Shown piece after piece: positions 8,321-57,990 of a DNA stretch of 64,000 bases. A model generated the notes under the pieces. That model saw nothing but the letters and a program-made list of their open reading frames with translations. It had not been told where the DNA came from and did not search any database. Positions within the stretch are counted from its first letter, which is position 1; each line of letters opens with the position of its first letter. Made by a program: the position numbers and the translations under genes. The stretch is from Candidatus Undinarchaeales archaeon. Its GTDB lineage: Archaea > SpSt-1190 > JASMDC01. Where the stretch lies: positions 62,001 through 126,000 of the forward strand of contig JASMDC010000001.1 of the NCBI GenBank assembly GCA_030753015.1, written 5' to 3'.

Positions 8321-8328
8321 GGTGCGCT

Positions 8329-35525: not shown

Positions 35526-38500
35526 TCAACCGGCCGACGGTTGGCCAGTTACCGGAGTCTGTGCCGTCCCATTCTGCTGTGCCTGACCTGTACCGGCCTG
35601 AGGTGTTCGGGCAACGTTCGATTGGGAACCATATGAACCGTAGTACCGATTGGCATAGTAGGAAGAGCGCATGGCCTTAGTGATCTCCACGACAAGGTCG
35701 GACAGCAGCCCTGTCCCCATGGCGGGTTCCTCAGCCCTGGCCACGAGATTCATGTTCCACCCGGTGGTGGCCTGGTACACGGACACTTCCAGTGAGACCC
35801 GCTTCTTGGAGAACTTGCCCCGACCGGCCCATATGGCCTTCCCGCTGAACATGCTCGATGCTTCACGGACGACATAGAGTGGAGTGGTCCTCGCCTCGAT
35901 TGCAGCCCAGGCCACCCGCCAGTCCGAACCCAGGTTCACCGCGTGTGAGAACGACTTGTACTTCCCGAACACGCTATCGTACTTATCGGGTTCCACCTCA
36001 TAGCCCTCCAGAACGGGGCAGACCGAGGACACCTTCACCGGCTTGACGTTCTGGGATTTCATCCTGCCCCGGTCGTCCTTGTAGGTCACGACCCCGGAGA
36101 TCTCACCCGACACGCACCGGAGCGGGTACATCTTGAAGATGGCCGACTGGAGGTCCCCGCTCTCAAGGTCGCCGAGCATGTAGACGTTGGACTCGGGCTC
36201 GAGGTATGCCAGGGCCGCAGGTGAGGTCAGTTCGACCTTAACGTCCCGGAGCGGGAACGTGGAGCCGTTCTCCACCTTGACGAATATCTTGAGGAGGGCC
36301 CCTTCCCGGTCCATGCCCCGTTTCACTACGACCCTCTCTTCGCCCAATGTCTTTCGCTTCACCACGAGGAAGAGACCAATGAACAGCGAAGCTCCGATAA
36401 TGACGAGCTCGACATGGTCCTTGATCTCCTCGACGAACTTGATCCAGTCGATGTGGTCGATGCAGGACCTTGAGATGCTGGTGATGCAGGTCTGGAGGCA
36501 GGGGATGGTCCCCAAGCTACAGATATGGGTCGTTGATAGTTCCAGGGCCAGGGTATTACCTCGTTCCATGGCAACCGCGTCCTCGCCTCCAAGGGAACGG
36601 GAGATGTGAGTGAGGTTCTCCACAAGGACCGTGCGCTCGTCGAAGTCCATCTTGTCCAGCTTGCGATGGTTCACGAGGGTGCTGTAGAGCTCCTTGAGCA
36701 TGGTGCGTGTCTCATCTTCCGACGTAGCAATCGAACTGAGGAGGAGCTTGTCGATGTTCTCTGCGCTCACACGCCGACATACCTCGAACTTCTGGGCGAA
36801 TTCGCACCGGTCGCAGAACACCGCCTCTCCCTGGAAGCAGCCACGTGTCTTCTCGTCGTACCCATAGCATCGTATCTCCTGGGTACGGCAGCAGTCCTCG
36901 ATGCACCGTCGCTGTGGAGCATCCTCGTACCGCTCGCAGAAACCGTCGCCGCACTCGGGGCATCGGGTTATCCCCATGAGGAACCGATCCTCGCAGCACA
37001 CGCCCTTCTGCATGATGCAGGAGCCCGCGCAGAGCACACCACCCCGTTCCACCTCACATGTAACTTGTGAGCAACTTGCCATGCCCTGGGACCAGGTGTT
37101 GTTGCAGCATGCGCCCAGCTGGGGGGGGAAGCACTGACCGCCGCAGCAGATCTCACCCTCACCGCACTCGCCATCGTCGCCGCAAGAACGGCAGACGTTA
37201 TCATCGCACATGGGCAGGGTCCGTGTGCAGTTGGCCGAATTGCAGCACTGGCCTTGCTCGATCCACGAGTTGTCGCAGCATACCCCCTGGCCGAGCCAGC
37301 ACTGGTCGCCGCAGAAGGAGAACCTGCCCTTGCATACCTTGGAGCATTGATGGTTGTCGCACAGGAACGTACCACAGTCGTTGTCATTGCAGCAGTCGGA
37401 ACCCTCGATCCACGTATCGTCACAGCAGTTGCCCTCTGCGGTGTACCACTTCTCGTCGCAGCACGTGCCCTCTCCCTCCTCGCACCGTCTCCCGCAGGGG
37501 GTGAATCCTTCCTGGCACTCGATGGCCGAGCATCTGTGGCCGCTCACGAAGCAGGTCGTACCCTCGGTACAGTCCACGTCACCGCAGCATACGTCGTCAC
37601 CGGTGTACCAGGAGTCATCGCAGCACAGCCCCTGCCCACCGTAGCATTTACCTCCGCAGCACTCGCTATCGGGTCCGCACTCGATGGACGCCGTGCAGGA
37701 ACGGCAGATGGAGATGTCACCATCACAGACAGGACGGTCGTGCGGGCAGTCCTGGTCGCCGCAGCATGCGCCGCTCTTGATCCAGGTCGAGTTGCAGCAC
37801 ACCCCGTCGCCCATGAAGCAATTCCCGCCGCATCCCTTGAACCCGAAGCGGCATGTTCGCGAGCAGGTGAAGTCCTCTTGGCAGGTATAGTTACCGATGC
37901 ACTCAGCGTCCGAGCAGCAGTTCCCCCCGGCAGTGAACGCGCCAGCGCAGCAAACACCGGAGGTCGAGTTCCAGCGCTCCAGGATGTCGTCACCGCAGCA
38001 TTGCTCATCGACCCATCGAGCGTTGATGCCTCCCTTGCACTGGCAGGAGAACGGATCCCCATCACCCTCCGGATTGGCGCACGCAGAGCACCATACCTTG
38101 CTGCCCTGGGTGCACGTGGTACCGTCGCAGAAGGTGGTGCAGTTCCCGAACAGACAGGCCTCGCACTCCTCGCACAGGTCCCGCTGTACGAGCCCCTTGA
38201 GGCAGCGAGCAGTGGCACCGCACCAATTGTCCTTCTCCTTATCGTCCCCACAGCATCGCCCGTCGATCCACTCGCCCCCGTCGCATTCACAGCTGCGGGC
38301 ATCGTTGTCCCCGTCCTTGCTGCATAGGCTGCACCAGGCATCGCCCCGACAGTTGGTTGCTTCACATTCGAGGGAGTACAGGCACATCTTCGATGGGCAC
38401 TCGTCGGAGGTGCACACGCACTGGCTGTTCGTGCAGACGTCATAGGGTGATTTGGTGCAGCTATCGCTAGTGAGACAGGGCTCGTCGCTGACGCCCCACC

Positions 38501-41500
38501 GGCCGTCGAGACAGAGTCCACCGACACCGGTCCAATCCTCGCCCTTATCGTCACCACAGCACATCTCCTTCTGGTCGGCGGTCGAGATGTGCCAGCTCCC
38601 TATCTTGCATGAGCACGAGTCCTCGTTGGCGTCCCCGTCGGAGCTGGAGCATGCAGTGCACCAGTCGTCCGTATCTATGGCACAGGCATTGCCGGTGCAC
38701 ACCCGGTCGTAGGAGCAGCGGTTTGCCGTGCAGCTCTCCGATGTGCACGACGCGTACGGGCGCTCGAGACAGTCGCTCACGAGGCAGCAGTTCCCACCGT
38801 CGGCCCAGGTGTTGTTGCAGCAGACACCCGTACCAACCTGGAACTCGCCACCGCAGCAAACGCCCTCTGTGCTGTTCCAGTACTCGGTGGCGCCGTCATC
38901 ACCGCAGCATTGTCCGTCCGCCCACGTGGCCTTTGTCAGGCAGTTCGAGCAGAAGTGCTGGTCATCGTCCGGGTCGGTGACCGCGGCCCATGCACCTGCG
39001 CTGCAGTATCCTCCAGCACCGCACCACTCCTCGTCGGGATCATCCCCGCAGCACGCAGCGGTCCGATCCGCAGTCGAGAACTGCCAGGTCCCGCTCTTGC
39101 ACGTCCGGCAGTACTCTGCGTCCAAGTCGGCGTTCCCATCCTTGACGGCGATCCAGCTATCGGTCTGACAGTACCCGGTCACCCCGCACCAGGCCTCATC
39201 GGGGTCATCCCCGCAACAGCGGTTCTCCCGCCACGCGAAGGATGAGCATACCTCGCAAAAGCGTGCGTTGTTGTCGGGATCGCTCCCTGCGACCATAGTC
39301 CAGGCACCTGCATGGCAATAACCGGTGAGACCGCACCATTCCTCGTCAGGATCGTCACCGCAGCACTGGTTCTCCCTCCATTCCTCTTTCGCGCACATCA
39401 CGCACGAGTAATAGTTGGTGTCCCCGTTCGAGGAAGCGCACACGGAGCATTCCATATCGGAGCAGCTTTCGCCGGTGGAACCGAGCACGTCGATCTCGCA
39501 CTGCGAGTAATCGCATGTGGACCATCCTCCTTCCTCGCAATCCGTGAATCCGCTGAAGTGGCACTTGAGCGCCTGGGCATCGATGTAGTTATCACAAAGG
39601 GGGTGGCTTGAGCTGGATTCCTTGTACTCGCAGGGGCGGGTCCAACCACCTACGGCGCACCCGGTGAGACCGCTGAAGTAGCAATTGTTATCGACGGCCT
39701 TTGGCAGACAGGGGGGTTTTGTCGGATCCGAGCTCGCGAAGGCACAGGAGGCCCAGCCGTCCTTGGTGCAGGAGGTTGAGCCGTCGAACTGGCAGGTACC
39801 CCCGACGGCGAGGGGCGGGCATGAGGATTTGTCACCGGTCTCCTGGGCGTACTTACATGCGGACCATCCGTCGTTCGTGCACAAGGTACCGCCACCGAAG
39901 TAGCATAAGCCGGCCTCCTCATAGTGACCGCAGGCCGGTCTTTCGGTGTCTTCGTTATAGTCACATGTGGACCATCCGGAGCTTGAGCATGACGTGGTGC
40001 CCCGGTAGTTACAGGTCCGGCCCGAGGAGTAGTGGGGGCAAGCTGGCTTCGATGTGTCGATGGTGTACTTGCAGTCCGACCAACCGTCCGTTATGCATGT
40101 AGCAGTGCCACTGTGACGGCAGTTCGTGCCAGATGCCTCGGATTCGCAGGCAGGTCTGCTCGCATCCTGCTTGTTGAAGGTGCAAGCAGCCCAACCGGAT
40201 GCGGTGCATTGGGTCGAGCCATCGAACTGACATACGTCCACCTGGGCCACGGGGCCACAGTCAGGCTTGTTAGGTTCTTGGGATGTAAATGTGCAGCTAC
40301 CCCAGCCCGATTCAGTGCATGCGGGCGAGCCCCCGAACTTACAGGTGTTCCCGTCCTCATCGGGCGGGCATGCTGGTCGCTGGTGGTCGGAGCTCGTATA
40401 TGTGCACTCGGACCACCCATCGGCCCCGCACTGTGGCGTCCCGCCATAATAGCAGATGTTACCGTCCGTGTACGGAGCGCACGCGGACCGCTGGGTATCG
40501 CTCGATGTGTATGCGCAGGCGCCCCAGCCCGATCCCGTGCACGAGGGTGCACCACCAAACTTGCATGTGTTGCCCTCGGGCTTGGGCGGGCATGCTGGTC
40601 GCTGGGAGTCGGACCCGCTGAAACTGCATTCTGTCCATCCACCGCTCCCGCACGAGGAGCTGCCCTGGTAGTAACAGTAGGTGCCCTCCGTTCGAGGAGA
40701 GCAGTCAGGGGGGTTCGTGTCGGAGTAGTCGAAGGCACACGCCTCCCATCCGCCGATCCCGCATGTAGCGTGCCCGCTGTATCGGCACGTGTTGTCCAAG
40801 GGAGAGGGATTGCATGTAGGCTTGTTCGTGTCGGTCAGCGAGTAGGTACAGCTCGACCACCCGGATGTCGTGCACTGTGCGTTTCCGCCATAGCTACAGG
40901 TGTTCCCCTCGTCCTTTGGCCCGCAGTCGGGTTTGCCGGCATCCTGGTGCGCGAACTCGCAGCCAGACCATCCCGTGGTGGAGCATGAGGTGGATCCCGC
41001 ATAGCTACATGTGTTCCCGACCGCCTTGGGGTCACAGTTCGGTGGATTACGGTCCGTGTTGTCCGAGCAGGACGTCCATCCTGAGGTGCCGCACTCACTT
41101 ATACCGCCGTAATGGCAAGCGTCCCCGTCAGCGGTGGGGGTGCAGGTGGGGCGTGAAGCGTCCGATGCCGAGAATGTGCAGCTTCCCCATCCGCTCGTGG
41201 TACAATCCGTGGTGCCCTGGTACTGGCAGGTGTCACCCACGGGCTTTGGACCGCACGCTGGCTTGACGCTGTCCTGAAGGCTGAAGAGACAACCGGTCCA
41301 GCCCGATTCGCTGCAGGAGGTGCTGCCCGAGTATCGGCAGGTGTCCCCCACGGGATCGGGACCGCACAAAGGTTTGTTGGTGTCTTGGTACGTATGGGTG
41401 CACTCGCTCCACCCGCTGGAACCGCACCGCGTGTATCTCCCGTAATAACATGTGTCGCCCGAGGCGATGGGATTGCAGACCGGTTTTATTAAATCGGAGG

Positions 41501-42932
41501 AGTGGGAGCATTGGGACCAGCCAGATGATGTGCAGGAGGTGGTGCCGCCATAGTCACAGGTATCACCTATCTCTCTGGGGCTGCAGTCGGGCTTCGTCGT
41601 GTCGCTCTGGTAATTACATGACGCCCACCCGCTCTCCGTGCAGTCCGTCTCCCCCGAATAGCGGCAGGTATCACCGTCCGGTTGAGGTCCGCAATCGGGC
41701 TTGTTGGTATCCTGGTACGCGAAGGAACACGCCTCCCAACCTGTTGACATGCAGGACGTGCTCCCGCCATACTTGCAGAGACGGTCACTGGCCGCAGCCG
41801 AGCAATCGGGCTTCGATCCCATCTGATAGTTGCAGTCCGACCATCCTCCAGCCTGGCACTGGGGATTGGCCGTGTGGTAGCAGGAGTTCCCATCGGGGTA
41901 ATTGTCGCATGTGGGCCGGGTCTCGCTCTCGAAAGAGCAGCTGGACCATCCCGACGCCGTGCAGTCGCTGGATCCCGAGTGCTTGCAGATGCTACCATCT
42001 ATATAGGATCCACAGGAAGGCTTGGTCCCGGTCTGGTAGCTGCACTCCCATCCTGAGGCAGTGCACTGTGCCGTGCCTGAATGGTAGCATGTGTTCCCGT
42101 TCGCGTAATTTCCGCAAGCGGGCTTTGTCTCGGTCTGGTAGCTGCACTCCCATCCTGAGGCGGTGCACTGCGCCGTGCCCGAATGGTAACATGTGTTCCC
42201 GTTCGCGTAGTTACCACATGCGGGCTTTGTCTCGGTCTGGTAGCTGCATTCCCAACCTGTCGCCTTGCACAGTGATGTTCCGGAGTGATAGCATGTGTTC
42301 CCGTTCGCGTAATTTCCGCAGGCGGGCTTTGTCTCGGTCTGGAACGCACAGGTCGACCATCCCGTCGCCGAGCACTGGGTCGATCCCGAGTGGTAGCATG
42401 TGTTCCCGTTGGCATAGTTCGTGCATGCGGGCTTGCTGTCGCTCTGGAACTCACATGTCGACCATCCCGATGCGGTGCATCCGGTCGTACCGGAATGATA
42501 GCATGTGTTCCCGTCCGGGTACTGGGTACATGCCGGTTTCGAGGTGCTCTGATAGGAACATTCCCAACCGCCGGCGGTACACTGCGCGCTGCCCGAGTAA
42601 TAGCAGATGTTCCCGTCCGCGTACAAGCCGCACGCGGGCTGGTTCGCATCCTGATACGAGTAGGAGCAGGTCGACCAGCCGGTGGACGTGCACGATGTGC
42701 TCCCACCGTACTTACAGGTAGTGCCACTGATGGTCTGAGAGCATGAGGGCTTGGAATTCCGGTAGCTGAAGCAGCATTTCGGATATTGATAGTACCCGCT
42801 GTAATAGCAGTAACTGCCACTTGTCTTGGGCAGGCAGCTCGTGGTAGATGTGCTGAAGCACCAGGCACTCCAGCCGAGGCTCATGACAAGGACCATTACC
42901 AGCAACAGGGTGCGTCGGTGGGCACCTATCAT
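35526..42932 (-). CDS. Giant Cys-rich repeat surface protein (2468 aa)
   Basis: Domain order: signal peptide (about 1-25); then about 30 tandem four-Cys repeats of 32-38 residues (about 65-1150), each roughly G-x-x-C-x-Y-x-G-x4-C-x3-GW-x2-C-x(9-11)-P-x-C; then a second Cys-rich zone (about 1150-2010) with repeated CCGDD and VCC(N/D)xxW...CC.D.DC units; a helical region; one membrane span (VIIGASLFIGLFLVV, about 2170); and a cytosolic tail of about 280 residues with a beta-sandwich-like part, ending in a Gln/Thr/Gly/Pro-rich stretch. The even Cys spacing suggests many disulfides and a long, stiff extracellular fibre. The family is not known to me. Repeats 5 to 7 are nearly identical at DNA level. 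Confidence 0.85.
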   Translation of the reverse strand: MIGAHRRTLLLVMVLVMSLGWSAWCFSTSTTSCLPKTSGSYCYYSGYYQYPKCCFSYRNSKPSCSQTISGTTCKYGGSTSCTSTGWSTCSYSYQDANQPACGLYADGNICYYSGSAQCTAGGWECSYQSTSKPACTQYPDGNTCYHSGTTGCTASGWSTCEFQSDSKPACTNYANGNTCYHSGSTQCSATGWSTCAFQTETKPACGNYANGNTCYHSGTSLCKATGWECSYQTETKPACGNYANGNTCYHSGTAQCTASGWECSYQTETKPACGNYANGNTCYHSGTAQCTASGWECSYQTGTKPSCGSYIDGSICKHSGSSDCTASGWSSCSFESETRPTCDNYPDGNSCYHTANPQCQAGGWSDCNYQMGSKPDCSAAASDRLCKYGGSTSCMSTGWEACSFAYQDTNKPDCGPQPDGDTCRYSGETDCTESGWASCNYQSDTTKPDCSPREIGDTCDYGGTTSCTSSGWSQCSHSSDLIKPVCNPIASGDTCYYGRYTRCGSSGWSECTHTYQDTNKPLCGPDPVGDTCRYSGSTSCSESGWTGCLFSLQDSVKPACGPKPVGDTCQYQGTTDCTTSGWGSCTFSASDASRPTCTPTADGDACHYGGISECGTSGWTSCSDNTDRNPPNCDPKAVGNTCSYAGSTSCSTTGWSGCEFAHQDAGKPDCGPKDEGNTCSYGGNAQCTTSGWSSCTYSLTDTNKPTCNPSPLDNTCRYSGHATCGIGGWEACAFDYSDTNPPDCSPRTEGTYCYYQGSSSCGSGGWTECSFSGSDSQRPACPPKPEGNTCKFGGAPSCTGSGWGACAYTSSDTQRSACAPYTDGNICYYGGTPQCGADGWSECTYTSSDHQRPACPPDEDGNTCKFGGSPACTESGWGSCTFTSQEPNKPDCGPVAQVDVCQFDGSTQCTASGWAACTFNKQDASRPACESEASGTNCRHSGTATCITDGWSDCKYTIDTSKPACPHYSSGRTCNYRGTTSCSSSGWSTCDYNEDTERPACGHYEEAGLCYFGGGTLCTNDGWSACKYAQETGDKSSCPPLAVGGTCQFDGSTSCTKDGWASCAFASSDPTKPPCLPKAVDNNCYFSGLTGCAVGGWTRPCEYKESSSSHPLCDNYIDAQALKCHFSGFTDCEEGGWSTCDYSQCEIDVLGSTGESCSDMECSVCASSNGDTNYYSCVMCAKEEWRENQCCGDDPDEEWCGLTGYCHAGAWTMVAGSDPDNNARFCEVCSSFAWRENRCCGDDPDEAWCGVTGYCQTDSWIAVKDGNADLDAEYCRTCKSGTWQFSTADRTAACCGDDPDEEWCGAGGYCSAGAWAAVTDPDDDQHFCSNCLTKATWADGQCCGDDGATEYWNSTEGVCCGGEFQVGTGVCCNNTWADGGNCCLVSDCLERPYASCTSESCTANRCSYDRVCTGNACAIDTDDWCTACSSSDGDANEDSCSCKIGSWHISTADQKEMCCGDDKGEDWTGVGGLCLDGRWGVSDEPCLTSDSCTKSPYDVCTNSQCVCTSDECPSKMCLYSLECEATNCRGDAWCSLCSKDGDNDARSCECDGGEWIDGRCCGDDKEKDNWCGATARCLKGLVQRDLCEECEACLFGNCTTFCDGTTCTQGSKVWCSACANPEGDGDPFSCQCKGGINARWVDEQCCGDDILERWNSTSGVCCAGAFTAGGNCCSDAECIGNYTCQEDFTCSRTCRFGFKGCGGNCFMGDGVCCNSTWIKSGACCGDQDCPHDRPVCDGDISICRSCTASIECGPDSECCGGKCYGGQGLCCDDSWYTGDDVCCGDVDCTEGTTCFVSGHRCSAIECQEGFTPCGRRCEEGEGTCCDEKWYTAEGNCCDDTWIEGSDCCNDNDCGTFLCDNHQCSKVCKGRFSFCGDQCWLGQGVCCDNSWIEQGQCCNSANCTRTLPMCDDNVCRSCGDDGECGEGEICCGGQCFPPQLGACCNNTWSQGMASCSQVTCEVERGGVLCAGSCIMQKGVCCEDRFLMGITRCPECGDGFCERYEDAPQRRCIEDCCRTQEIRCYGYDEKTRGCFQGEAVFCDRCEFAQKFEVCRRVSAENIDKLLLSSIATSEDETRTMLKELYSTLVNHRKLDKMDFDERTVLVENLTHISRSLGGEDAVAMERGNTLALELSTTHICSLGTIPCLQTCITSISRSCIDHIDWIKFVEEIKDHVELVIIGASLFIGLFLVVKRKTLGEERVVVKRGMDREGALLKIFVKVENGSTFPLRDVKVELTSPAALAYLEPESNVYMLGDLESGDLQSAIFKMYPLRCVSGEISGVVTYKDDRGRMKSQNVKPVKVSSVCPVLEGYEVEPDKYDSVFGKYKSFSHAVNLGSDWRVAWAAIEARTTPLYVVREASSMFSGKAIWAGRGKFSKKRVSLEVSVYQATTGWNMNLVARAEEPAMGTGLLSDLVVEITKAMRSSYYANRYYGSYGSQSNVARTPQAGTGQAQQNGTAQTPVTGQPSAG
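39480..42745 (-). repeat. About 30 tandem coding repeats of the Cys-rich protein
   Basis: The units encode about 34-38 residues each, with four Cys at fixed spacing. The copies around 42010-42310 differ at only a few bases, so they are recent; those near 39500-40500 differ widely and include variants such as CQFDGSTQC and CYFSGLTGC. The array has no non-coding spacers, so it is not a CRISPR array. Confidence 0.85.
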
Positions 42933-48784: not shown

Positions 48785-50053
48785 CTATCCAATGGGCATG
48801 TAGTACAGCTGCCCCTCCGAGTCGCGCATGAAGTAGGCGTCGAAGGTCCCGGCGTCCACCGCAGTTGCCTTCTGTACCTCCTCGCCCTCCATGTAGAACA
48901 CGTTGAACGTCACGTTGTGCTGGAATGTGTGGAGTGCTTGCTGAAGGGAGTGGGGCGTTATAGGCTGGTAGAGGGTATTGGGCAGTCGCTCGGGTGCGTT
49001 CTCCGTGATGTAGGTCAGCATGGCCTTCGGATCCCGCTCGGCCAGATCGTCATCAAGGACATAACGGTTCTGTCCCGTGAGCTCGTTCTCATCCCTCTCA
49101 TACGTCCGCTCAAGCTCCTTCCATGAGAGAGAGCCGTCCATGCGCTGTCTTGCAAGCCCGCCCAGCTCTTTTGCTAGCGTTCCTGCATCGCGGGCGATGT
49201 CATCTATGTGGTCGGGTATATTGTCGATCCCATACGCTTTGTCGAGGCGGTTGAGCACGTGGAATCCGGCCTTCGCATATGGGCATTTGAAGCCCTCGTT
49301 CACAGTAGTAGTCCACCGCAGCAGGTCCCTTATGAGGAGCGAGCGCACGTTGGGACCAGCGCCGTCACGCTCCGCGAGCTCGAGGCCCTTGACCGTCGCG
49401 TAAGCTTCGCTCAGACCTATATCCTCATAACTACGCAGGAAGTCATTGGCCGTCGAGGCATCAAGATCCGCCACGAGGTCAGCATGACCGAGCTCGTGGT
49501 ATTTGGTTGCAGCCTTGTACTCGTCCCGGCTCATATCATCTTGATGGATCCCTGTAATCACTTCATTGACCTTCTGTACGAATTCTTGGGGCAGGTGGGT
49601 CGATTCAATGGTGTCCTGCTCCCGGTATGTGCTCATACCATGATCGATGAGAGAATCATCCTTGAGGAGGACGGTCGTCCCGTCAGGGTGGCGTTCTGTG
49701 AGCCCAGTAGTGCCCTGCCGCCCATCGCTCTCTGCTAGAGTCGCGACCTCATAGATATCGATCCCTCGGGCATCGTCGCGCTCATGACCTTTGACGTGGT
49801 ACACGCCGAGCGAACTTCCACCGACATCGAGTAGGGTGTCCCCTGAGCGGACGGAGAATGAACCAAGGTCATTATACACTTCGTCCATATGCTTCGCGAG
49901 AGTGTTCACTGCCTCCTTTGCTGACGAAGCGGACGCCACCTCATTGAGATAGTCCGGGGCGTCATCTGGTAGTGTCGCTGCTGGCGTGTCCTCGAAGTAT
50001 GACGCGATGGCGGTGCCAAGGAGCTCACGGAGCTCGCCAACATCACTACTCAA
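48785..50053 (-). CDS. Hypothetical protein with HELGH zincin-like motif (422 aa)
   Basis: An unrecognised soluble acidic protein. Near residue 190, KYHELGHADLVADLD contains HExxH, the zinc-binding motif of metallopeptidases, and a Glu or His further on could be the third ligand. The rest is helical and without known domains. No ATG is in frame at the start; TTG at 50053 lies 25 bp after a minus-strand TATA box (50078-50087) and is the best start. It is divergent from the redox operon, sharing a 90-bp promoter region with it. The peptidase role is only an inference from the motif. Confidence 0.6.
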   Translation of the reverse strand: MSSDVGELRELLGTAIASYFEDTPAATLPDDAPDYLNEVASASSAKEAVNTLAKHMDEVYNDLGSFSVRSGDTLLDVGGSSLGVYHVKGHERDDARGIDIYEVATLAESDGRQGTTGLTERHPDGTTVLLKDDSLIDHGMSTYREQDTIESTHLPQEFVQKVNEVITGIHQDDMSRDEYKAATKYHELGHADLVADLDASTANDFLRSYEDIGLSEAYATVKGLELAERDGAGPNVRSLLIRDLLRWTTTVNEGFKCPYAKAGFHVLNRLDKAYGIDNIPDHIDDIARDAGTLAKELGGLARQRMDGSLSWKELERTYERDENELTGQNRYVLDDDLAERDPKAMLTYITENAPERLPNTLYQPITPHSLQQALHTFQHNVTFNVFYMEGEEVQKATAVDAGTFDAYFMRDSEGQLYYMPIG

Positions 50054-50077
50054 TAGTAGTAATAATACATTCCTGCA

Positions 50078-50087
50078 ATTTAAGTAT
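50078..50087 (-). promoter_or_regulatory. TATA box of the HELGH gene
   Basis: ATACTTAAAT on the minus strand, 25 bp before the TTG at 50053. Confidence 0.5.
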
Positions 50088-50110
50088 TTCGGTTTAACTC
50101 CGTGGGTGAA

Positions 50111-50120
50111 TACATTTAAG
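50111..50120 (+). promoter_or_regulatory. TATA box of the redox operon
   Basis: TACATTTAAG lies 24 bp before the ATG at 50144; all nine following genes are read from it, with no larger gap downstream. Confidence 0.55.
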
Positions 50121-50143
50121 CATGAGGCACCGCTCGCATCCCG

Positions 50144-50935
50144 ATGGTCTCCTTTCTCCCGGGAGGGCCTATAGCACTGCACGGGGGCGTCGCACTCCTC
50201 CTGATGACTGTACCAACCCTTCTTATCCTCTCGGCCATCGTACGCGAGGTCTCAAGGACCTTGTTGTGCACGGACTGCCGCCAATGTACTGCGGTATGTC
50301 CTGTCGTGACCATCGCACGGGAGCTAGATAACAAGGAGGGGGACGGTAGGGCCACATTCATCGGACCCGCTGAGGTCATGCGGTCGCTCCGTGCTGGAGA
50401 TGACAAGCGGATCATAGAGGGGGGACTTCATATCTGCTCGACATGCCGTAATTGCGTGGAACGATGCCCTCGTGGACTGGATGCAGAGGCAATGGTGCTC
50501 GCGGGAAGGAGCATCCGATTCCGAAGGGAAGGCGCTACTGATGGTCAGGTCAAGCTCCTTGAGCGGCTCGACAAGGCAAGAAATGTCCTTGGTGAGACCA
50601 AGAGCCGACCCGATCCTGCCTCGCAGGCCCGGTCCATTCTAAAGAGTGCCAAGCAGCTTGAGCGGCACCTCGAAGATAAGGAAAACGAGATATCGTCAGA
50701 AGACGGTCCGGATCAGATCCTAGATAAGAATGTGGATGGGACTGACGATACGAAAGTCATGAAGGCGGATACTGAACCTGAACGTATACCTAAGGTAAAA
50801 AAGACCGTGAAGCCGAACAAGGATTCAAAGAGCAATCGGTCAAAGAAGCTGGTGAAAACGAAGGCCTCGAAAAGATCTGCGAAGAAGGACGCCGGAGGGC
50901 GGAAGCGATCGACAGGGCCATCGGAGGGATCGTAA
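50144..50935 (+). CDS. HdrC-like membrane Fe-S protein with basic tail
   Basis: A 263-aa protein and first gene of the redox operon. Residues 12-35 are a membrane span. Two [4Fe-4S] motifs follow: CTDCRQCTAVCP (about 42-53) and CSTCRNCVERCP (about 98-109), the arrangement of HdrC, which passes electrons to HdrB. The rest (about 165-263) is a charged, probably disordered tail rich in Lys, Ser and Arg (KKLVKTKASKRSAKKD), not present in usual HdrC. The tail may bind a partner or acidic lipid surfaces. Its stop overlaps the start of the HdrB-like gene. Confidence 0.85.
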   Translation: MVSFLPGGPIALHGGVALLLMTVPTLLILSAIVREVSRTLLCTDCRQCTAVCPVVTIARELDNKEGDGRATFIGPAEVMRSLRAGDDKRIIEGGLHICSTCRNCVERCPRGLDAEAMVLAGRSIRFRREGATDGQVKLLERLDKARNVLGETKSRPDPASQARSILKSAKQLERHLEDKENEISSEDGPDQILDKNVDGTDDTKVMKADTEPERIPKVKKTVKPNKDSKSNRSKKLVKTKASKRSAKKDAGGRKRSTGPSEGS

Positions 50936-51768
50936 TGCACCGCATGGTCTTCGACGGTTGCTTATACGGACTACAGCTACTTGACACAAGATATGCGGTG
51001 CGATACCTTCTGAAGAAGCTCGGGATCGAGGTGACTGAACCCACAAGGGACATCTGCTGTGGGAGACCGTCATCGTTCATCGGCGACATGGCAGGAAAGG
51101 ACAAGCTCATCAACATCTCCGTCAGCGGCTGGGGTCGCACGCAAGGTTCTGTGGACGAGGTTCTGGTGTCATGTCCGGGTTGCGGGACTGCGCTCATGGA
51201 TTCTGCCGATGTGGCACGAAGGGGCATCGAGGTGACCCACTTCATCGAACTCCTTCCCGAGAAGATGGAGTTCCTCCGCAAGAGCGGGCTCGGAGAGGTG
51301 AACGCTCGAGTGACCGTTCATTTCCCTTGCCATCTCAGCCGGGGGATGGGTGTGGACAATGCGGTCATGGTGGATGTCCTTAACGCGATTCGTGGCCTTG
51401 AGATAATCGAAATGGAGGAGGCTGGCTCGTGCTGCGGTGGCTCGGGCGGCCTCAGAGCGAGTGATCCCGCGGTGGCTAAAGTCTTACGCTACCGCAAGAT
51501 ATGTAATGCCCTGGCAACCAAGGCCGACCTAATCGTGACAGCGTGCCCCCGATGCGAAATCTCCCTGAGCGAGGCCCTCGCGGAGGTGGCCGCCGACGAG
51601 GACGCGGATCCCGCCCTGCGCAAGACTGCTGCAAACATGAAGGTCGTATCCTTAGCCTTCCTGGTGGCATTTGGTATGGACGACTTCACAAAGAACCTAG
51701 AGCGTGTGCTTACCGAAGCCAAGGAGCGACTTGCCGCTCGGAAAGCGGCCGAGGAGGGGATGATCTGA
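50935..51768 (+). CDS. HdrB-like CCG-domain protein
   Basis: A 277-aa protein with two CCG domains, the hallmark of heterodisulfide reductase subunit B and related succinate, glycolate and lactate oxidoreductase subunits. Domain 1: GCLYG, ICCGRPS and CPGCGTAL. Domain 2: PCHLSRGMG (about 126), GSCCGGSGG (about 163) and CPRCEISL. In HdrB these bind non-cubane [4Fe-4S] clusters that reduce disulfides or handle thiyl chemistry. No FAD subunit (HdrA) lies nearby, so it is not a complete HdrABC. ATG at 50935 overlaps the previous stop by one base; it is coupled with the HdrC-like gene. Confidence 0.85.
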   Translation: MHRMVFDGCLYGLQLLDTRYAVRYLLKKLGIEVTEPTRDICCGRPSSFIGDMAGKDKLINISVSGWGRTQGSVDEVLVSCPGCGTALMDSADVARRGIEVTHFIELLPEKMEFLRKSGLGEVNARVTVHFPCHLSRGMGVDNAVMVDVLNAIRGLEIIEMEEAGSCCGGSGGLRASDPAVAKVLRYRKICNALATKADLIVTACPRCEISLSEALAEVAADEDADPALRKTAANMKVVSLAFLVAFGMDDFTKNLERVLTEAKERLAARKAAEEGMI

Positions 51769-52451
51769 TCATCGGATACCTTGCGCTCGCACTGTTCCTC
51801 GCGACCATCGTTCTCTCACTGAAGGGTGTCATCCCCCAGGACCGTATCCCAATTCAGACGGCGCTGCTCGGTGTGACACTCCTCATAGTGCTCATATCCG
51901 TGATCGGTGCTCGTCAGGGACTGGCGCGCACTATCACTCCCACGGACCTCTTGGCTTCCATTCAGATCCATCCCATCACGGCTCTGATCGCTGGATTCTT
52001 GGCCGTCGGTGGGCTGGAAGCGGCTGGTGCCTTCGAGGCACTGGTGGATGCCCTCGACAGGCTCGCCTTGTTCAAGATCGGTGGGATTGAAGTATTTGGT
52101 CTTCCGGGGGTCGTGGTCCTGCTCGTCAATACACCCGCCATCCTCGCCCTCCCCTGTGGCCGTATACTTGGTGCCGCGCTGCTCCCGGCAGCCCTCTTCC
52201 TTGGACGGGCCGTGGCCGAACGACAGGACGACAATCGCTTGGTGGCGGTAGTTGTGTTCGCTTTCACGGTCAATGCCGCAGCATCATGCGCGCCCTCGCT
52301 CCTTGGAGGTCTCGGAATGATAGGTGAAGGTATGACGGGTCAGCCGTTCGGCACTTTCTCGAACCCTCTACGGGCGGGCATCATGGCTGGGACCGCCTTT
52401 ACGGCAGTGGTCCTCGGACGGCTGGCGCCCCTGAAGGTAGGAGGGCGATAA
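51765..52451 (+). CDS. Novel polytopic membrane protein A (paralog of B)
   Basis: A 228-aa protein with six or seven spans, of a family I do not recognise. It is a clear paralog of the next gene. Conserved elements in both are a His in (I/L)HPI (about residue 65), a Pro/Cys motif LPCGRI (about 127), and NAAASCAPS-x-LGG (about 170). The His and two Cys lie at helix ends and could bind a cofactor or a quinone. The only available start is CTG at 51765, which overlaps the HdrB stop (CTGA) just as ATGA and GTGA do elsewhere; no in-frame ATG, GTG or TTG exists between 51765 and the first span. Confidence 0.75.
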   Translation: MIIGYLALALFLATIVLSLKGVIPQDRIPIQTALLGVTLLIVLISVIGARQGLARTITPTDLLASIQIHPITALIAGFLAVGGLEAAGAFEALVDALDRLALFKIGGIEVFGLPGVVVLLVNTPAILALPCGRILGAALLPAALFLGRAVAERQDDNRLVAVVVFAFTVNAAASCAPSLLGGLGMIGEGMTGQPFGTFSNPLRAGIMAGTAFTAVVLGRLAPLKVGGR

Positions 52452-52455
52452 GATC

Positions 52456-53196
52456 ATGGAGCTCTCCCTTCCTTTGATCGGGGCCGCCGTCTGGATCGCT
52501 GTGGCTCTCTTGGTCATTCGTTCCCGCATCGACGATAAGCACCTCAGGACCGGTTACATATGTCTGTTGGTGTTCGTGACGACGCTCGCTTACACCCAGG
52601 TGGCACCACCTCCGATACCCATACAGACCGTTCTGGTGGCACTAGCAGTGTTCATGCTGGTGGTCTCGGAGGCGACACTTGCCGAGCTCCTGGCAGGGAT
52701 CATGCTCCACCCAATCATGGCCATGACCGCAGGCTTCATGGCCGCAGGCGCGCTGGGATTCGCAGGGGGATATGATGCGATGGTCGAGATATTCGAGAGG
52801 CTCGCGATGACGACCCCTCTTGGACTTGTCGGGACGGCCGTGCTTGTGGCGAATATCCCTGCGCTCATTCCGTTGCCGTGTGGCCGGATCACCGCGGCGG
52901 CCTTCCTGCCGGGCGTTGTGAGGTTCGGTAACGAGGTGCTCGCGCCAGGTATCGCTGCCACAGGAGCTGCTGACCACGCTCCGTTCGCGACCCATGTGCT
53001 CGTGGCCGCGTTCATCGTCAACGCCGCAGCATCCTGTGCCCCCTCGCGCCTGGGTGGGATCGCTACCGTCGGCGAGGGTGAACTGGGGCTCGAACCTGGT
53101 ACCAGTGCTAGGGCCCAGCAGGCGGGCATCCTGGTTATGACCGCCGTGACTGCCCTCATAATGCTTCTCATATCCAATGGAACCCTTTCGGGGTGA
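52456..53196 (+). CDS. Novel polytopic membrane protein B (paralog of A)
   Basis: A 246-aa membrane protein, paralogous to protein A and starting four bases after it. About seven spans. It keeps LHPIMAMTAGFMAAGAL (about 88-104), LIPLPCGRITAAAFLP (about 136-151) and NAAASCAPSRLGG (about 193-205), while the loops differ. Paired membrane paralogs often form a heterodimer. The proteins do not look like NapH, NrfD, HdrE or antiporter-type Complex I subunits. Comparison with Eha and Ehb hydrogenase membrane subunits would be the first test. The conserved Cys and His suggest a cofactor. Confidence 0.75.
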   Translation: MELSLPLIGAAVWIAVALLVIRSRIDDKHLRTGYICLLVFVTTLAYTQVAPPPIPIQTVLVALAVFMLVVSEATLAELLAGIMLHPIMAMTAGFMAAGALGFAGGYDAMVEIFERLAMTTPLGLVGTAVLVANIPALIPLPCGRITAAAFLPGVVRFGNEVLAPGIAATGAADHAPFATHVLVAAFIVNAAASCAPSRLGGIATVGEGELGLEPGTSARAQQAGILVMTAVTALIMLLISNGTLSG

Positions 53197-53202
53197 TACG
53201 CT

Positions 53203-53346
53203 ATGAACACGAGACTCTTGCTGACGATGGTCGGGATTGGCGCCCTCTGCGGCGCAACGTTCAACCATGCCCTGGGCTATGCGATCTACAAGCCCGGAGG
53301 CATCATGGGCGGCCTTGTGACCGGGCTGCTGATGTTCCTACTCTAG
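53203..53346 (+). CDS. Small membrane peptide (47 aa)
   Basis: Read directly from the sequence: 47 residues, ATG at 53203, TAG at 53344. Two hydrophobic stretches (LLLTMVGIGALCGATF and IMGGLVTGLLMFLL) flank a YAIYKPGG turn, so it is probably a two-span hairpin. It is placed six bases after protein B and directly before the next Fe-S gene, whose GTG follows its stop, so it belongs to the operon and is likely a small subunit of the complex. Confidence 0.75.
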   Translation: MNTRLLLTMVGIGALCGATFNHALGYAIYKPGGIMGGLVTGLLMFLL

Positions 53347-53799
53347 GTGCTTCACGTCATGGAACCTGTCATCATCACGGTGCTGCTGGCGGCGAGCGTG
53401 GGAGTGGCAGGTCTAATTAGAGGTCGAGCCCGACGGACCGTCGCCATGCCCGTTGACGAGGTCAGGCGTAACGTCATGGCCTCGCTGGCTCTCGCAGTCC
53501 TCCTCGGCAGCAACGCTGTGAAGGCATTGCGCACACGTCACCTGTGGACCCTCACCTGCTACGAGTGCCAGGCATGCCAGCCTGTGTGCCCTCGCGGGCT
53601 CGATCCTGCACGGTTCGTGGTCGCAGCGCGCACGAACAATCCGGACCTTCCTAGTCAAGTGGACGGTACGCATGACGTACCCGTGCGCGAAGCGGCCCGT
53701 TTGTGCGTCAGGTGTGGGCTCTGTGAGCAGGCGTGCCCCCTCCGGCTCCCCATCATGAGTGCGATCGATGATCTGAAGAACGATGGGAGGTTTGTGTGA
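53347..53799 (+). CDS. Membrane-anchored double [4Fe-4S] protein (HdrC-like)
   Basis: A protein of 146-150 residues. An N-terminal span (EPVIITVLLAASVGVAGLI) is followed by a hydrophobic segment and two cluster motifs: CYECQACQPVCP (about 75) and CVRCGLCEQACP (about 120). The layout resembles the first gene of the operon, so the operon contains two HdrC-like anchors, one at each end. GTG at 53347 or ATG at 53359 is the start. The stop is one base from the next ATG. Confidence 0.82.
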   Translation: MLHVMEPVIITVLLAASVGVAGLIRGRARRTVAMPVDEVRRNVMASLALAVLLGSNAVKALRTRHLWTLTCYECQACQPVCPRGLDPARFVVAARTNNPDLPSQVDGTHDVPVREAARLCVRCGLCEQACPLRLPIMSAIDDLKNDGRFV

Positions 53800-53800
53800 G

Positions 53801-54430
53801 ATGGTCGAGCGGCGCGACTTCCTGCGGAACGCTCTCGGGTACGGAGCAGCGCTGGTGGCAGCGCTCTCCCTCGCGCCACCCACGGGCAATGGTGCAGTGG
53901 TCCGTCCGCCCGGTGCCGTGGACCCGCGCCAGTTCAAACTCCTCTGTCTTAGGTGCGACCAGTGCGCTCAGGTCTGTCCGACCGAGGCCATCGAGATAAT
54001 ATCCACCGGTCCGATAGAAGAGATCGGTCTGCCACGCGTTACGGGCCAACCGGGTCCGTGCACCTTCTGCTATGAGTGCAATAAGATCTGTCCGACCCAG
54101 GTGCTCGACCTCGGGACCGTGACCGATCTCCAGCAGAGCGGTAGGCAACCGAAGCTAGGCACCGCATCCCTCGCCCATCCCGAGCGGTGTATCAGATGCG
54201 ACCGATGTGACGAGGCCTGCCCCTACATAGTCGTCGAGAACGACCTTACCGGGGAGGGAGAGCAGGTAATGCGCTACCGAAAGCTTCTGGAGCCCATCTC
54301 TGAGGGGGCGTTGCAGCGTGAGATGGCCCGCCTCGAGGATTACTGCAGGGGATGCGGCCATTGCGTGAACGCCTGTCCGACGGACGTGCTCGTTCTCAAG
54401 CCGAGTGCTCGTAAGGTGGTGCGCTCATGA
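53801..54430 (+). CDS. NapG-like Tat-exported polyferredoxin
   Basis: A 209-aa ferredoxin-type protein with four [4Fe-4S] motifs: CLRCDQCAQVCP, CTFCYECNKICP, CIRCDRCDEACP and CRGCGHCVNACP. The N-terminus is a twin-arginine signal (ERRDFLRNALGYGA followed by ALVAALSLAPP), so the folded protein is exported and works outside the membrane, as NapG does with NapH in nitrate reduction. No nitrate reductase is nearby. ATG at 53801 fits the signal start. It overlaps the next gene (ATGA). Confidence 0.88.
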   Translation: MVERRDFLRNALGYGAALVAALSLAPPTGNGAVVRPPGAVDPRQFKLLCLRCDQCAQVCPTEAIEIISTGPIEEIGLPRVTGQPGPCTFCYECNKICPTQVLDLGTVTDLQQSGRQPKLGTASLAHPERCIRCDRCDEACPYIVVENDLTGEGEQVMRYRKLLEPISEGALQREMARLEDYCRGCGHCVNACPTDVLVLKPSARKVVRS

Positions 54431-55215
54431 GCGTCCAGACATACCGCCGGCCGGTCCAGGCGATATTCCTTATCATATCCATCATCCTTCTCGGCGGGAT
54501 CGCACGGTACTGTCCGTTCATCGGTGTTCAGCAGATTGCTGGCGCTATCGGTTCCGGTCTAATCGACGAGGCCTTTGATGCGGGAACAATCCGCGGCTTC
54601 TCTCGCCTCACTATAGTCGTGGGTGGATTCACGCTCTTCGTCATCGTGTTCGGGCGTGTGTGGTGTGGATGGATTTGCCCGTTCGGAACCATCCTGAGCG
54701 CGGCGAACGCGCTCAAGCTCCCTGTCCAGGAGCGCAGTCCTCCACGCATCCTCCAAGGGTATTCCTTCAAGTACGAGCTCTTAGCAGTCTTTATCGGCGC
54801 GACCATGATCTTCGGATACCCCGTGTTCTGCCAAGTGTGCCCGGTCGGCGCCCTCTACAGGACAGCGGGCTTCCAGACGTTCGACCTTGCCGTAATCCCC
54901 GGTTTGACCGTCGTCTTCATATCCGTGCTCTTCGTGTTAATCTATCATCGTCGGTTCTGGTGCAAGTCAATCTGTCCGCTCGGTGCGCTGACGGCTATCT
55001 TGGACAAGGTAAGCGCGTTCCGAGTCCTAGTGGACGAGGATACGTGCATCGAGTGCATGGTTTGCCAGCGCGAGTGCCCCATGGACATCCTCGTCATTGA
55101 GGATTCTATCCGCCGTGGCCATCGAACAGTGCCCACGGGGGAGTGCTTTCGCTGCGGACGGTGCATCGACGTGTGCCCCAAGGATGCCCTCTCCTTCAGC
55201 TTCAAGTACGGGTGA
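54427..55215 (+). CDS. NapH-like membrane Fe-S protein
   Basis: A 262-aa protein with four spans, CxxxCP motifs in CGWICPFGT, CQVCPVGA and CKSICPLGA, and two C-terminal [4Fe-4S] motifs (CIECMVCQRECP, CFRCGRCIDVCP). The family takes electrons from a quinol or passes them across the membrane to NapG. ATG overlaps the NapG-like stop. Together the two form a membrane electron conduit; the partner on the inside is probably the HdrBC-like pair. Confidence 0.9.
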   Translation: MSVQTYRRPVQAIFLIISIILLGGIARYCPFIGVQQIAGAIGSGLIDEAFDAGTIRGFSRLTIVVGGFTLFVIVFGRVWCGWICPFGTILSAANALKLPVQERSPPRILQGYSFKYELLAVFIGATMIFGYPVFCQVCPVGALYRTAGFQTFDLAVIPGLTVVFISVLFVLIYHRRFWCKSICPLGALTAILDKVSAFRVLVDEDTCIECMVCQRECPMDILVIEDSIRRGHRTVPTGECFRCGRCIDVCPKDALSFSFKYG

Positions 55216-55219
55216 TATC

Positions 55220-55672
55220 ATGGTCCACATGCGTGAGCATTTCATACTGGTGATCCTGGTGATCGGGATCGTTGCCCTTGTAGTCATGGGCTCCACTCGG
55301 CTCACTCCGTCCTCTACCACATCGGTGAACGCCCGTCTTCTCAACCGGCCCAATCCTGCTGGAGAGGGGATCTATCGCACAACGCTCGAGCTCTCCTGGG
55401 AAGGAAGCCCGGTCGCCAGGCGATGTGCGATACTTGTGCTGGCGTTCGATCGGAACGACCGGGATGACGCGTGGCATGTGTCGGTCCTGAAGGACATCGA
55501 AGCCTCTCCCTATGGGCAGAACCTGTGGGCGGACATCCCTCCTGACAAACCCGAAGGGAAAGCGGTCCTCACCGCCGACCTCCTGTTCGAGAGCATAGGG
55601 GCGGGAGAGGTAGTGGAGGCGCTCCTCCTGTGCGATGGTGAGGTCGTCGCACGGGACGAGGTTCTTATCTAA
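55220..55672 (+). CDS. Membrane-anchored extracytoplasmic protein (150 aa)
   Basis: Last gene of the operon. An N-terminal anchor (FILVILVIGIVALVVMGS, about residues 9-26) precedes a beta-rich domain of about 115 residues with no Cys-cluster motif; its only Cys residues are in ARRCAILV and LLLCDGE. It would sit outside the membrane near the NapG-like protein and may be a structural or redox partner. The stop overlaps the carbamoyltransferase gene on the other strand by four bases. Confidence 0.7.
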   Translation: MVHMREHFILVILVIGIVALVVMGSTRLTPSSTTSVNARLLNRPNPAGEGIYRTTLELSWEGSPVARRCAILVLAFDRNDRDDAWHVSVLKDIEASPYGQNLWADIPPDKPEGKAVLTADLLFESIGAGEVVEALLLCDGEVVARDEVLI

Positions 55673-57960
55673 GCCTTGTTCCGTCGGACAACGAAGCCCT
55701 CTATCACGAGGACGTCCACTCCACGCCGGACCAGAACCGAGAGCGCATCCCTAGGTGTGCACACGATCGGTTCACCATGGATGTTGAAGGATGTGTTGAG
55801 CACGACGGGAACTCCCGTGTGGGACTCAAGCTCGGTAAGCACCCTGTGGTAGGCAGGCTGGAGCTCCCGCCGCACCGTCTGAGGTCGGGTCGTGCCATCG
55901 ACATGGACGACGGCCGGGATCTCACCACGCTTCTCCGCGGGCACATCGTAGGCCTCGATCATGAACGGGGCCTCCCGCCCTTCCACAAGGTACTCTTCCG
56001 CCCGCTCCAAGGGGAGGCTCGGACAAAACGGTTGGTACCACTCCCTGCCCTTGAGGAGGAGGTTGATTCGGTCCTTGGTTGAAGTGTTGGAGGGATCGGC
56101 GAGCACCGAGCGGTTGCCTAGGGCGCGAGGGCCGAACTCCATGCGTCCCTCGAACCAGCCGACGATAGCACCTCCTGCAGCAAGGTCCGCGGCAGTACCC
56201 GCCATATCGTCAGTGGCATCCCACGTGATCCCCCGTGTCCCTCGGAGGGCGGTCAGCACGTCGTCCTCGGTATAGGAGGGGCCGAGGGACACGCTCTCGA
56301 AGCGATGGGACGTAGGTCTGCGTCCCTCCTCGCGACATCGGTGATGCCATACATACAGCGCAGCACCCACACACGTTCCTGCATCGCTGGCAGCAGGCTG
56401 GATGAACAGGTCCTCGACACAGTCCAGCCGACGTATGTTCATGTTGGCCAGCACATTGAGGAAAACCCCTCCCGCTGTGGCGACCTTTGCCTGCCCCGTG
56501 AGCTCGACCGCTTGGGTCGCCAGCGACGTGAGCACCTTCTCCAGTCTACGCTGGAGTGCCTTGGACACGGCGGGCCGCGTTGTGTTCTCAAGGAGCCCTC
56601 TTCGGACCGCGGCGTACACGGGGGCGTCAATGAATGTGCCTTTGTGCTTCCCAAGAGGGGGTTTCTCCACCGCACGCGCGTCGTACCAGGTCCGGAACGC
56701 CTCGATGGCCCTTTCCGCGAATCCTTCCACATCGGGTGCGTCGGCCGGGTTACCCCCTGTCCACAGAGTGCGGCAGAGGGGGGAGAACTCCACGAGCTCC
56801 CGTACATCACGCTCATCCATATCGAGCATCTCCGCGATGCTCGTCGTCGTCCGTGTCCCATCGCATAGGGAGTATACGGCGTGGTCGCGCTCGATGAGCC
56901 TGAGCGACAGGCCCCCGCTCATGGAAGCAGAGTATACTCCTTGGCGCTCGTGCAGCTCGACATTGGGTAGGAGGCAGGCCCAAATATCCTCGTCCTGTAT
57001 CCCAATGAGGGGTGCGGCCAGCTGGACGACCTCATCCACGTGTGCCGAGGGGGAGCGGCGGAGAACATACCATAGTGCTCGGAACTCCTCGTCCTCAAGC
57101 GGTTCTACCGACAAGGGATTGCCGGAGTGGGGCCGTAACCGGTACCCTTCCGTCGTCCGCTCCGGCCGCCACTTGGGTGAGGGTCGGACCACTTCCGATC
57201 CATGGAGGGTGTTACGCAGGTCCCTGGAAGGGACGGGTTTAATATCAAGGAGCCCGAGGAGGGCCTCCGCCGTTGGTTGCAGCTCAGCCTCCTTTGGAAG
57301 GGGCATGAGGGCCTCATACAGTTGTTCGATCCCATCGGGGACTTCTCCCGGGAACGAGCTCATGGCGGTGACCTTGCCCTCATCGTACCATATGGATAGC
57401 CCGAGGAGGAGCGTTGTCAATCCGTATACGAGCCCGACGGAAGAGCGCAGGGGGGAGGATGCGACGAGCTCTAAGGAACCGTCAGCCCATCGGCCAACGG
57501 CGGCCGAGCGGTCATCCCCGTACCCGTCCACCGCCAAGGCAGTGCATCCATCGAATCCCGAGCACAGAGCCGCCGAGGCCAAGTGGGCCGTCTCGTGGTC
57601 GACGGCGGCCACCTCTACAGGCGTGGAGCGCTCGCCCGCAAAGAATGTACGGATCCGGTCCACTTCCTCCTGATTGCGAAGACGAACGTTCGTGGAGAAC
57701 AATGACGCGAGCTGGGCCCGGGACCTACGGTGTGGCGGTTCGATGGGGCGTGCCCCCTCGCCTCCGTATGCGACAAGGTCGATATCATCAGGAGTGAGCC
57801 TTGCCAAGCGTAATACCTCGAAGATGGAGTCCCGGGGGAAGTGGCCGGTGTGCTTGTCCCTATTGAGCCGCTCCTCCTCCACCGCGGCCACCACCTGACC
57901 GTCGCGGACGATGCATGCCGATCGGTCATGGGCCTTGAAGGACACCCCGAGGATGTTCAC
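55669..57960 (-). CDS. NodU/TobZ-type carbamoyltransferase with PqqD-like insertion
   Basis: A 763-aa enzyme of the NodU/CmcH family, which transfers carbamoyl groups from carbamoyl phosphate to hydroxyls of natural products through a carbamoyl-adenylate. The start NILGVSFKAHDRSAC and the VDHETAHLASA and DGYGDD motifs form the Kae1-like domain; EFGPRALGNRSVLADP and NTSFNIHGEP belong to the C-terminal carbamoyl domain. Usual length is 550-600 aa. Here an insertion of about 185 residues (about 250-435) contains a PqqD-like stretch (YSLCDGTRTTTSIAEML, then ERDVRELVEF). GTG at 57960 suits the family start and a TATA box (57981-57990) 21 bp upstream. The target is unknown. Confidence 0.85.
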   Translation of the reverse strand: MNILGVSFKAHDRSACIVRDGQVVAAVEEERLNRDKHTGHFPRDSIFEVLRLARLTPDDIDLVAYGGEGARPIEPPHRRSRAQLASLFSTNVRLRNQEEVDRIRTFFAGERSTPVEVAAVDHETAHLASAALCSGFDGCTALAVDGYGDDRSAAVGRWADGSLELVASSPLRSSVGLVYGLTTLLLGLSIWYDEGKVTAMSSFPGEVPDGIEQLYEALMPLPKEAELQPTAEALLGLLDIKPVPSRDLRNTLHGSEVVRPSPKWRPERTTEGYRLRPHSGNPLSVEPLEDEEFRALWYVLRRSPSAHVDEVVQLAAPLIGIQDEDIWACLLPNVELHERQGVYSASMSGGLSLRLIERDHAVYSLCDGTRTTTSIAEMLDMDERDVRELVEFSPLCRTLWTGGNPADAPDVEGFAERAIEAFRTWYDARAVEKPPLGKHKGTFIDAPVYAAVRRGLLENTTRPAVSKALQRRLEKVLTSLATQAVELTGQAKVATAGGVFLNVLANMNIRRLDCVEDLFIQPAASDAGTCVGAALYVWHHRCREEGRRPTSHRFESVSLGPSYTEDDVLTALRGTRGITWDATDDMAGTAADLAAGGAIVGWFEGRMEFGPRALGNRSVLADPSNTSTKDRINLLLKGREWYQPFCPSLPLERAEEYLVEGREAPFMIEAYDVPAEKRGEIPAVVHVDGTTRPQTVRRELQPAYHRVLTELESHTGVPVVLNTSFNIHGEPIVCTPRDALSVLVRRGVDVLVIEGFVVRRNKA

Positions 57961-57980
57961 GCTGCTGGCCGTGTGCGTCA

Positions 57981-57990
57981 AGGTTTAAAG
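57981..57990 (-). promoter_or_regulatory. TATA box of the carbamoyltransferase gene
   Basis: CTTTAAACCT on the minus strand, 21 bp before the GTG at 57960. Confidence 0.5.

Follow-up and report, generated by a model that had tools for sequence, protein, structure and literature searches.

Which kind of membrane complex is encoded by an operon that joins Hdr-like and Nap-like redox proteins to a pair of paralogous membrane proteins? This question is raised by a nine-gene operon at positions 50144–55672 of a 64,000-nucleotide stretch (hereafter, the window) of the genome of a Candidatus Undinarchaeales archaeon (GCA_030753015.1, contig JASMDC010000001.1, positions 62,001 to 126,000). Its nine open reading frames (ORFs) are all open on the plus strand, with junctions of -1, -4, +4, +6, 0, +1, -4 and +4 bases, and the original prediction of a single-strand nine-gene operon stands both in this tight spacing (-4 to +6 bases) and in domain content. 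Known couplings of electron flow to ion movement are few: quinone loops, complex I-type antiporters, Rnf/Nqr and haem-copper pumps. The paralogous proteins, memA and memB (collectively memAB), appear to constitute an elevator of the ion-transporter (IT) superfamily carrying four invariant cysteines, and the operon could quite possibly encode a redox-coupled transport complex that is built on this elevator and is functionally analogous to RnfA/E–NqrD/E.

memA and memB as halves of one predicted elevator-type protein

A profile of memA and memB retrieves two Altiarchaeota genomes in which both proteins are joined as one protein of 440–460 amino acids (aa). The window proteins are 44–48% identical to the matching halves of these fused proteins, and memA and memB are 43% identical to each other. 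Judged from sequence, they are two halves of one protein, which is fused in most relatives. An AlphaFold2 model of the Altiarchaeota fusion of locus L015 (pLDDT 78.5, pTM 0.81) is matched over its whole length by NaS1 of the DASS/SLC13 family (Z 23.9, 413 residues, 4.5 Å), and further by NaCT (Z 23.2), ArsB (Z 22.9), VcINDY (Z ~21; E 6e-7 by Foldseek) and TRAP SiaQM (Z 19.0), with 62 chains at Z >= 8. The Pfam CitMHS profile matches an Altiarchaeota protein (G122) with an E-value of 1.8e-7, 2 bits under the cut-off. As modelled, fused memAB has the IT-superfamily elevator fold: scaffold helices, a hairpin and a broken helix make up each of its two inverted repeats. When memAB is aligned by HHalign with five CitMHS-type proteins of Altiarchaeota, a set that contains one unrelated protein, the match is collinear but weak (probability 21%, E 0.001), and thus the IT assignment rests on the fold and the CitMHS profile match. 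For the window pair the fold is presumed from its identity to the fused proteins; searches of Pfam, NCBIfam and PDB sequences with window memA and memB give nothing usable (CitMHS E 2.6). Among the matches listed, the fold of the fused relative leads to DASS/SLC13, ArsB and TRAP rather than to subunits of Eha, Qrc, Dsr or Rnf. In loci L020 and L021, an external domain is present at the N-terminus of memA in place of the separate anchored external protein, so that the memA N-terminus is predicted to be outside, with which the charges after the first transmembrane (TM) helix agree.

Four invariant cysteines

Four Cys residues, one per hairpin tip and one per broken helix, are invariant among 24 fused and 5 split homologues (window included), of which the fused ones are as distant as 32% pairwise identity. 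Seven memAB members have no Cys besides these four. In every member the hairpin tips carry PCGR (or S/A-C-S/A-R) and lack the Ser-Asn-Thr (SNT) motifs of DASS, and the helix-break motifs of each half are MPCGRI and NAAASCGPSPxGGIGxxGEG. In VcINDY, the tips of HPin and HPout and the loops L5ab and L10ab make up the two clamshells for Na+; together with the SNT motifs, they also form the site for the substrate (PMC9098524). By homology, the four Cys of memAB would lie where DASS proteins bind two Na+ and the substrate, an equivalence read from helix order and motif. Their probable role is to ligate an Fe-S cluster or to work as two pairs of dithiols. C142 and C194 of window memB are located at two helix breaks in its own model, which is poor.

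Distribution and gene content of the relatives

A search of 84,980 species with an alignment that includes the fused relatives yields 15 loci, in Altiarchaeota, metagenome-assembled genomes (MAGs) of Thermoplasmata/'Euryarchaeota' (two on complete chromosomes), a deltaproteobacterial MAG, Coatesbacteria and a Planctomycetota MAG. Whole-genome profile searches find the system in 4 of 29 genomes of Altiarchaeota, 4 of 389 of the phylum of bin33, 10 of 14 of the Coatesbacteria phylum and 8 of 395 of the phylum of the deltaproteobacterial MAG. Collectively, memAB is present in about 30 genomes of several archaeal and bacterial phyla, always with membrane-anchored Fe-S proteins. The original prediction left it to comparison whether the genes recur together; they do so in other phyla, in differing orders, and the operon is therefore not a chance array. 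The system is absent from all nine other genomes of the window's phylum, and tblastn against plasmids finds no memAB relatives. The system is patchy yet old, with archaeal and bacterial versions well apart in the memAB tree. Only this division is used from the tree, in which the window and the deltaproteobacterial MAG (L016) have long branches. L016 groups with Altiarchaeota, albeit on its long branch, which suggests gene transfer. The window's genome measures 3.85 Mb vs 0.6–1.1 Mb for the nine others of the phylum, pointing either to a remarkable lineage or to an odd placement or bin (contamination 5%).

In Altiarchaeota, the order is a Cys-containing one-TM protein, memAB, two ~50-aa peptides, FeS2, an external Fe-S protein, an anchored ferredoxin, NapH, HdrC, the CCG protein and a CcdA-like protein. 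The Thermoplasmata-like order is HdrC, CCG, Cys protein, memA/memB, peptide(s) and NapH, often with FeS2 and two NapG-like proteins ahead, and the window order (HdrC, CCG, memA, memB, peptide) is the same minus the Cys protein. Nearly all loci have next to memAB such a small protein with one TM and a conserved motif that includes CxxC (SPCxxC in archaea), but none is found beside window memAB. Homologues of the 47-aa peptide occur throughout, in one or two copies beside archaeal memAB and as a similar stretch joined to the memAB C-terminus in bacteria. Genes for HdrA, hydrogenase and HdrBC lie divergently beside the L015 cluster, and in L018 memAB comes after a Complex-I/Mrp-type cluster.

While the membrane core of memAB, small peptide and anchored Fe-S proteins is constant, comparison of gene content across archaeal and bacterial loci reveals that the cytosolic donors or acceptors change among HdrC/CCG, a GltD-like flavoprotein fused to NapH, and FrdAB-like proteins. 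The NapH fusion to a Fer4_20/Pyr_redox_2 (GltD-type) flavoprotein is found in L021 and L025 and, judged by length and position, also in L027. In Coatesbacteria the partner has an FMN_bind domain like that of RnfG/NqrC, whose flavinylation motif is DVDAVSGATYTSDG or DVDAVTGATYTSY; a dicluster domain comes after it. In the deltaproteobacterial phylum (L078, L082, L083, L084), a Tat/NHL-repeat protein and memAB are followed by multihaem cytochromes, FrdB-like, FrdA-like (FAD_binding_2) and NrfD-like (by eye) proteins; the operon around memAB in these four loci is conserved and respiratory-looking. The originally proposed link from a cytosolic thiol/disulfide couple to an external or quinone partner would thus describe only one version, since partners of the NAD(P)H-type flavoprotein or fumarate-reductase-like kind are found elsewhere, and nothing in this analysis points to a quinone site.

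Comparison with known systems

memAB resembles DASS/SLC13, ArsB and TRAP-M in the full-length predicted fold of the fused relative, in its two repeats, and in a central site lined by hairpin tips and broken helices, whereas it differs from them by PCGR in place of SNT, four invariant pocket Cys, a frequent split into two genes, and the company of Fe-S proteins and a ~50-aa peptide. With the Rnf/Na+-NQR core, it shares paralogous inverted halves, broken helices with one Cys each, a predicted membrane-spanning electron chain, an FMN_bind partner (Coatesbacteria) and an NAD(P)H-type flavoprotein partner (some archaea). RnfA/E and NqrD/E are two inverted paralogues with broken helices that, with one Cys per half-helix, hold [2Fe-2S] and alternate access (PMC12174285). 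Homology of memAB to RnfA/E is not borne out, as fold searches of the L015 model led to DASS, ArsB and TRAP, with no Rnf/Nqr structure among the matches listed. Pfam Rnf-Nqr (PF02508) does not match memA, memB or the fused protein, and the memAB system is without RnfD/NqrB. Rnf-family subunits and an ApbE-like gene are found elsewhere in the same genome, at a contig edge (L107, C41:1-6000), and HdrA homologues at three other places, one of them beside genes resembling formylmethanofuran dehydrogenase; the operon system is therefore additional to these. The absence of HdrA and hydrogenase genes, as originally stated, is true for the operon locus.

NapH and NapG homologues, Tat (twin-arginine translocation) export and CX3CP motifs are shared with NapGH/NosR-type modules, but the cluster is without NapA, NosZ or another terminal reductase, and its NapH is tied to memAB. 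The HdrC-like dicluster protein and the CCG protein with two full motifs are shared with HdrBC/HdrDE, TfrB, DsrMK, QmoC and TmcB; on the other hand, HdrA, DsrM or a cytochrome b partner is lacking in the operon, and its HdrC has its own TM anchor. The description of the operon as unassigned is upheld, the curated Hdr, Nap, Dsr, Qmo and Tmc cut-offs lying well above the scores given in Table 1 for NapG, NapH and HdrC, and above those for a further NapH comparison (123.6 bits, cut-off 234), HdrB (60.8 and 345), DsrK (20.9 and 400), QmoC (19.1 and 300) and TmcB (25.7 and 735), the last three being best scores. Nor, in comparison with Eha/Ehb, is any hydrogenase-subunit match found among the nine proteins. 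A literature search that reached few subscription papers found no described IT-type elevator within an Fe-S redox complex, and the five classes of membrane apparatus named in a survey of flavinylation (PMC8238504) are different ones. The system is rated as new since the IT fold is not known to underlie any kind of redox complex, a rating that holds unless memAB is a plain neighbour.

A possible redox-coupled transport complex and its alternatives

Cluster-binding motifs number two in HdrC, two in the CCG protein (CX31CCX37CXXC and CX33CCX36CXXC, of the non-cubane cluster type), two in FeS2, four in NapG, which has a twin-arginine start, and two in NapH, which additionally has three membrane CX2-3CP motifs; from these counts, about 10 cubane and 2 non-cubane clusters are predicted in the operon. 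Charge bias and Tat signals place HdrC, CCG and the NapH tail inside and FeS2 and NapG outside, so that electrons could be carried on both faces of the membrane. In the redox-coupled transport complex that we tentatively favour, the IT elevator would be coupled to an electron chain spanning the membrane. Cytosolic Fe-S proteins, HdrC and CCG in the window, would feed or drain electrons, and external FeS2 and NapG with the membrane polyferredoxin NapH would provide for their transfer on the opposite side and their return. The four-Cys pocket would be positioned between the carriers of both faces, and its reduction or oxidation would drive, or be driven by, inward/outward movement and the passage of an ion, for instance Na+ or H+. 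It is the carriers on both faces, the pocket between them and the Rnf analogy that make redox-coupled ion transport the favoured possibility, and the analogy is strengthened by the RnfG/NqrC-like FMN_bind partner and by the NapH-fused NAD(P)H-type flavoprotein, a counterpart of RnfC in role. The earlier suggestion that the paralogous pair moves ions is retained in that the pair is the likely ion- or solute-moving part; what changes is its reading as the two halves of an IT elevator with four invariant pocket Cys.

Several points weigh against such a complex. The isolated model of window memB has a pLDDT of 72.8 and its fold search is weak (best Z 8.6); the invariant Arg of the PCGR tips would fit a cofactor and an anionic substrate equally; and there is no obvious need for a second pump of the Rnf kind in an organism equipped with Rnf-family subunits and an ApbE-like gene. 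memAB might instead be a true solute carrier for an oxyanion, dicarboxylate, sulfur species or metalloid, whose Cys would serve in binding or reduction of the substrate, with the Fe-S chain reducing or oxidising it during uptake. Such a carrier, which we regard as unlikely, would agree with the DASS/ArsB/TRAP fold, with conservation of Arg and Cys in the loops for the substrate, with the fumarase and malic-enzyme-like genes adjoining the cluster in L078 and the fumarase subunit in L088, and with FrdA/FrdB-like proteins in bacterial clusters. However, no fumarate or dicarboxylate genes are seen in archaeal clusters, the carboxylate-binding SNT motif is replaced, no binding protein is conserved, and the cytosolic partners of this one core differ widely.

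Electrons from H2, NAD(P)H or thiols might instead be exported to external CcdA/DsbD-like proteins and envelope thiols, memAB carrying a dithiol across without ion pumping. The clusters of L014, L015, L016, L017, L021 and L028 contain a DsbD_2/CcdA-like gene or have one close by, a methionine sulfoxide reductase (SelR) gene adjoins L025, and a thioredoxin-reductase-like gene is near L014. This export of reducing power is rather unlikely, as a CcdA-like gene is missing both from the window and from the clusters read in Coatesbacteria and the deltaproteobacterial phylum, the memAB Cys are single residues in four loops and not CXXC pairs, and many Fe-S clusters would be needless for a thiol relay. 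In one Coatesbacteria subgroup, Fe-S/FMN genes lie several kb from memAB, as might be expected if an ordinary transporter were co-transcribed by chance with an independent NapGH/Hdr-type redox complex. That is very improbable, given an association kept across several archaeal and bacterial groups despite different gene orders, four strictly conserved Cys and a sporadic distribution as a unit.

A more specific form of the redox-coupled transport complex, which must be called doubtful, is a new pump class that evolved independently of Rnf/Nqr, in which an IT elevator with a four-Cys Fe-S cluster in the former Na+/substrate pocket would move ions while shuttling electrons between Fe-S/flavin partners on the cytosolic and the external side. 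If true, a secondary-transporter fold as the core of a redox complex would be an additional mode of coupling, would tie secondary to primary transport in evolution, and would account for part of the energy metabolism of uncultured Altiarchaeota, Thermoplasmata-related archaea and Coatesbacteria. The claim hinges on four residues and is directly testable.

Gene models and other features of the window

The coordinates of the operon genes are given in Table 1. No ATG, GTG or TTG is present at the homology-supported start of memA, where CTG at 51765 fits, with a 4-base overlap with the CCG stop. With this apparent CTG start (51765–51767), the overlap (CTGA) resembles the customary ATGA coupling. 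The refined starts of NapG and of the last gene are 53801 and 55220.

Table 1. Coordinates of the operon genes in the window and of a small associated protein in other loci
Feature	Position	Strand	Remarks
A+T-rich, TATA-like stretch	50078..50120	+	5' of operon start; seen by eye, weak
HdrC-like protein	50144..50935	+	One TM, then two [4Fe-4S] motifs; Lys-rich tail; C-terminus predicted cytosolic; TIGR03290 31.6 bits (cut-off 160)
HdrB/TfrB-like CCG protein	50935..51768	+	Two complete CCG motifs; CCG 7.1e-27; TfrB C-half 130.8 bits (cut-off 385)
memA	51765..52451	+	N-terminal half of IT-superfamily-like protein; PCGR and SCAPS cysteines; CTG start; fold inferred via fused relative
memB	52456..53196	+	C-terminal half of IT-superfamily-like protein; one additional N-terminal TM; PCGR and SCAPS cysteines
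47-aa peptide	53203..53346	+	Two TM; homologues beside memAB in archaea
FeS2	53347..53799	+	Membrane-anchored, two-cluster Fe-S protein; clusters predicted outside
NapG-like ferredoxin	53801..54430	+	Tat signal; four clusters, predicted outside; NapG 75.3 bits (cut-off 269)
NapH-like membrane protein	54427..55215	+	CX2-3CP motifs and two C-terminal [4Fe-4S] motifs; TIGR02163 124.3 bits (cut-off 213)
Anchored external domain	55220..55672	+	One TM; without family match
Small one-TM CxxC protein	L015 8019-8480; L025 8609-8950; L028 7846-8262		

The operon is flanked by a divergent gene at 48785–50182 (minus strand), whose product has a HELGH metallopeptidase-like motif without a Pfam match, and by a convergent carbamoyltransferase-like gene at 55669–57981 (minus strand; recognised by eye). 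A secreted-looking protein of 2468 aa with many Cys-rich repeats is encoded at 35526–42932. Also recognised by eye are RFC, FEN1 and ADP-dependent kinase-like genes, a content that marks the host as an archaeon, and a TnpB-like (IS605/IS200-type) ORF with zinc-finger CXXC motifs at 8314–9633.

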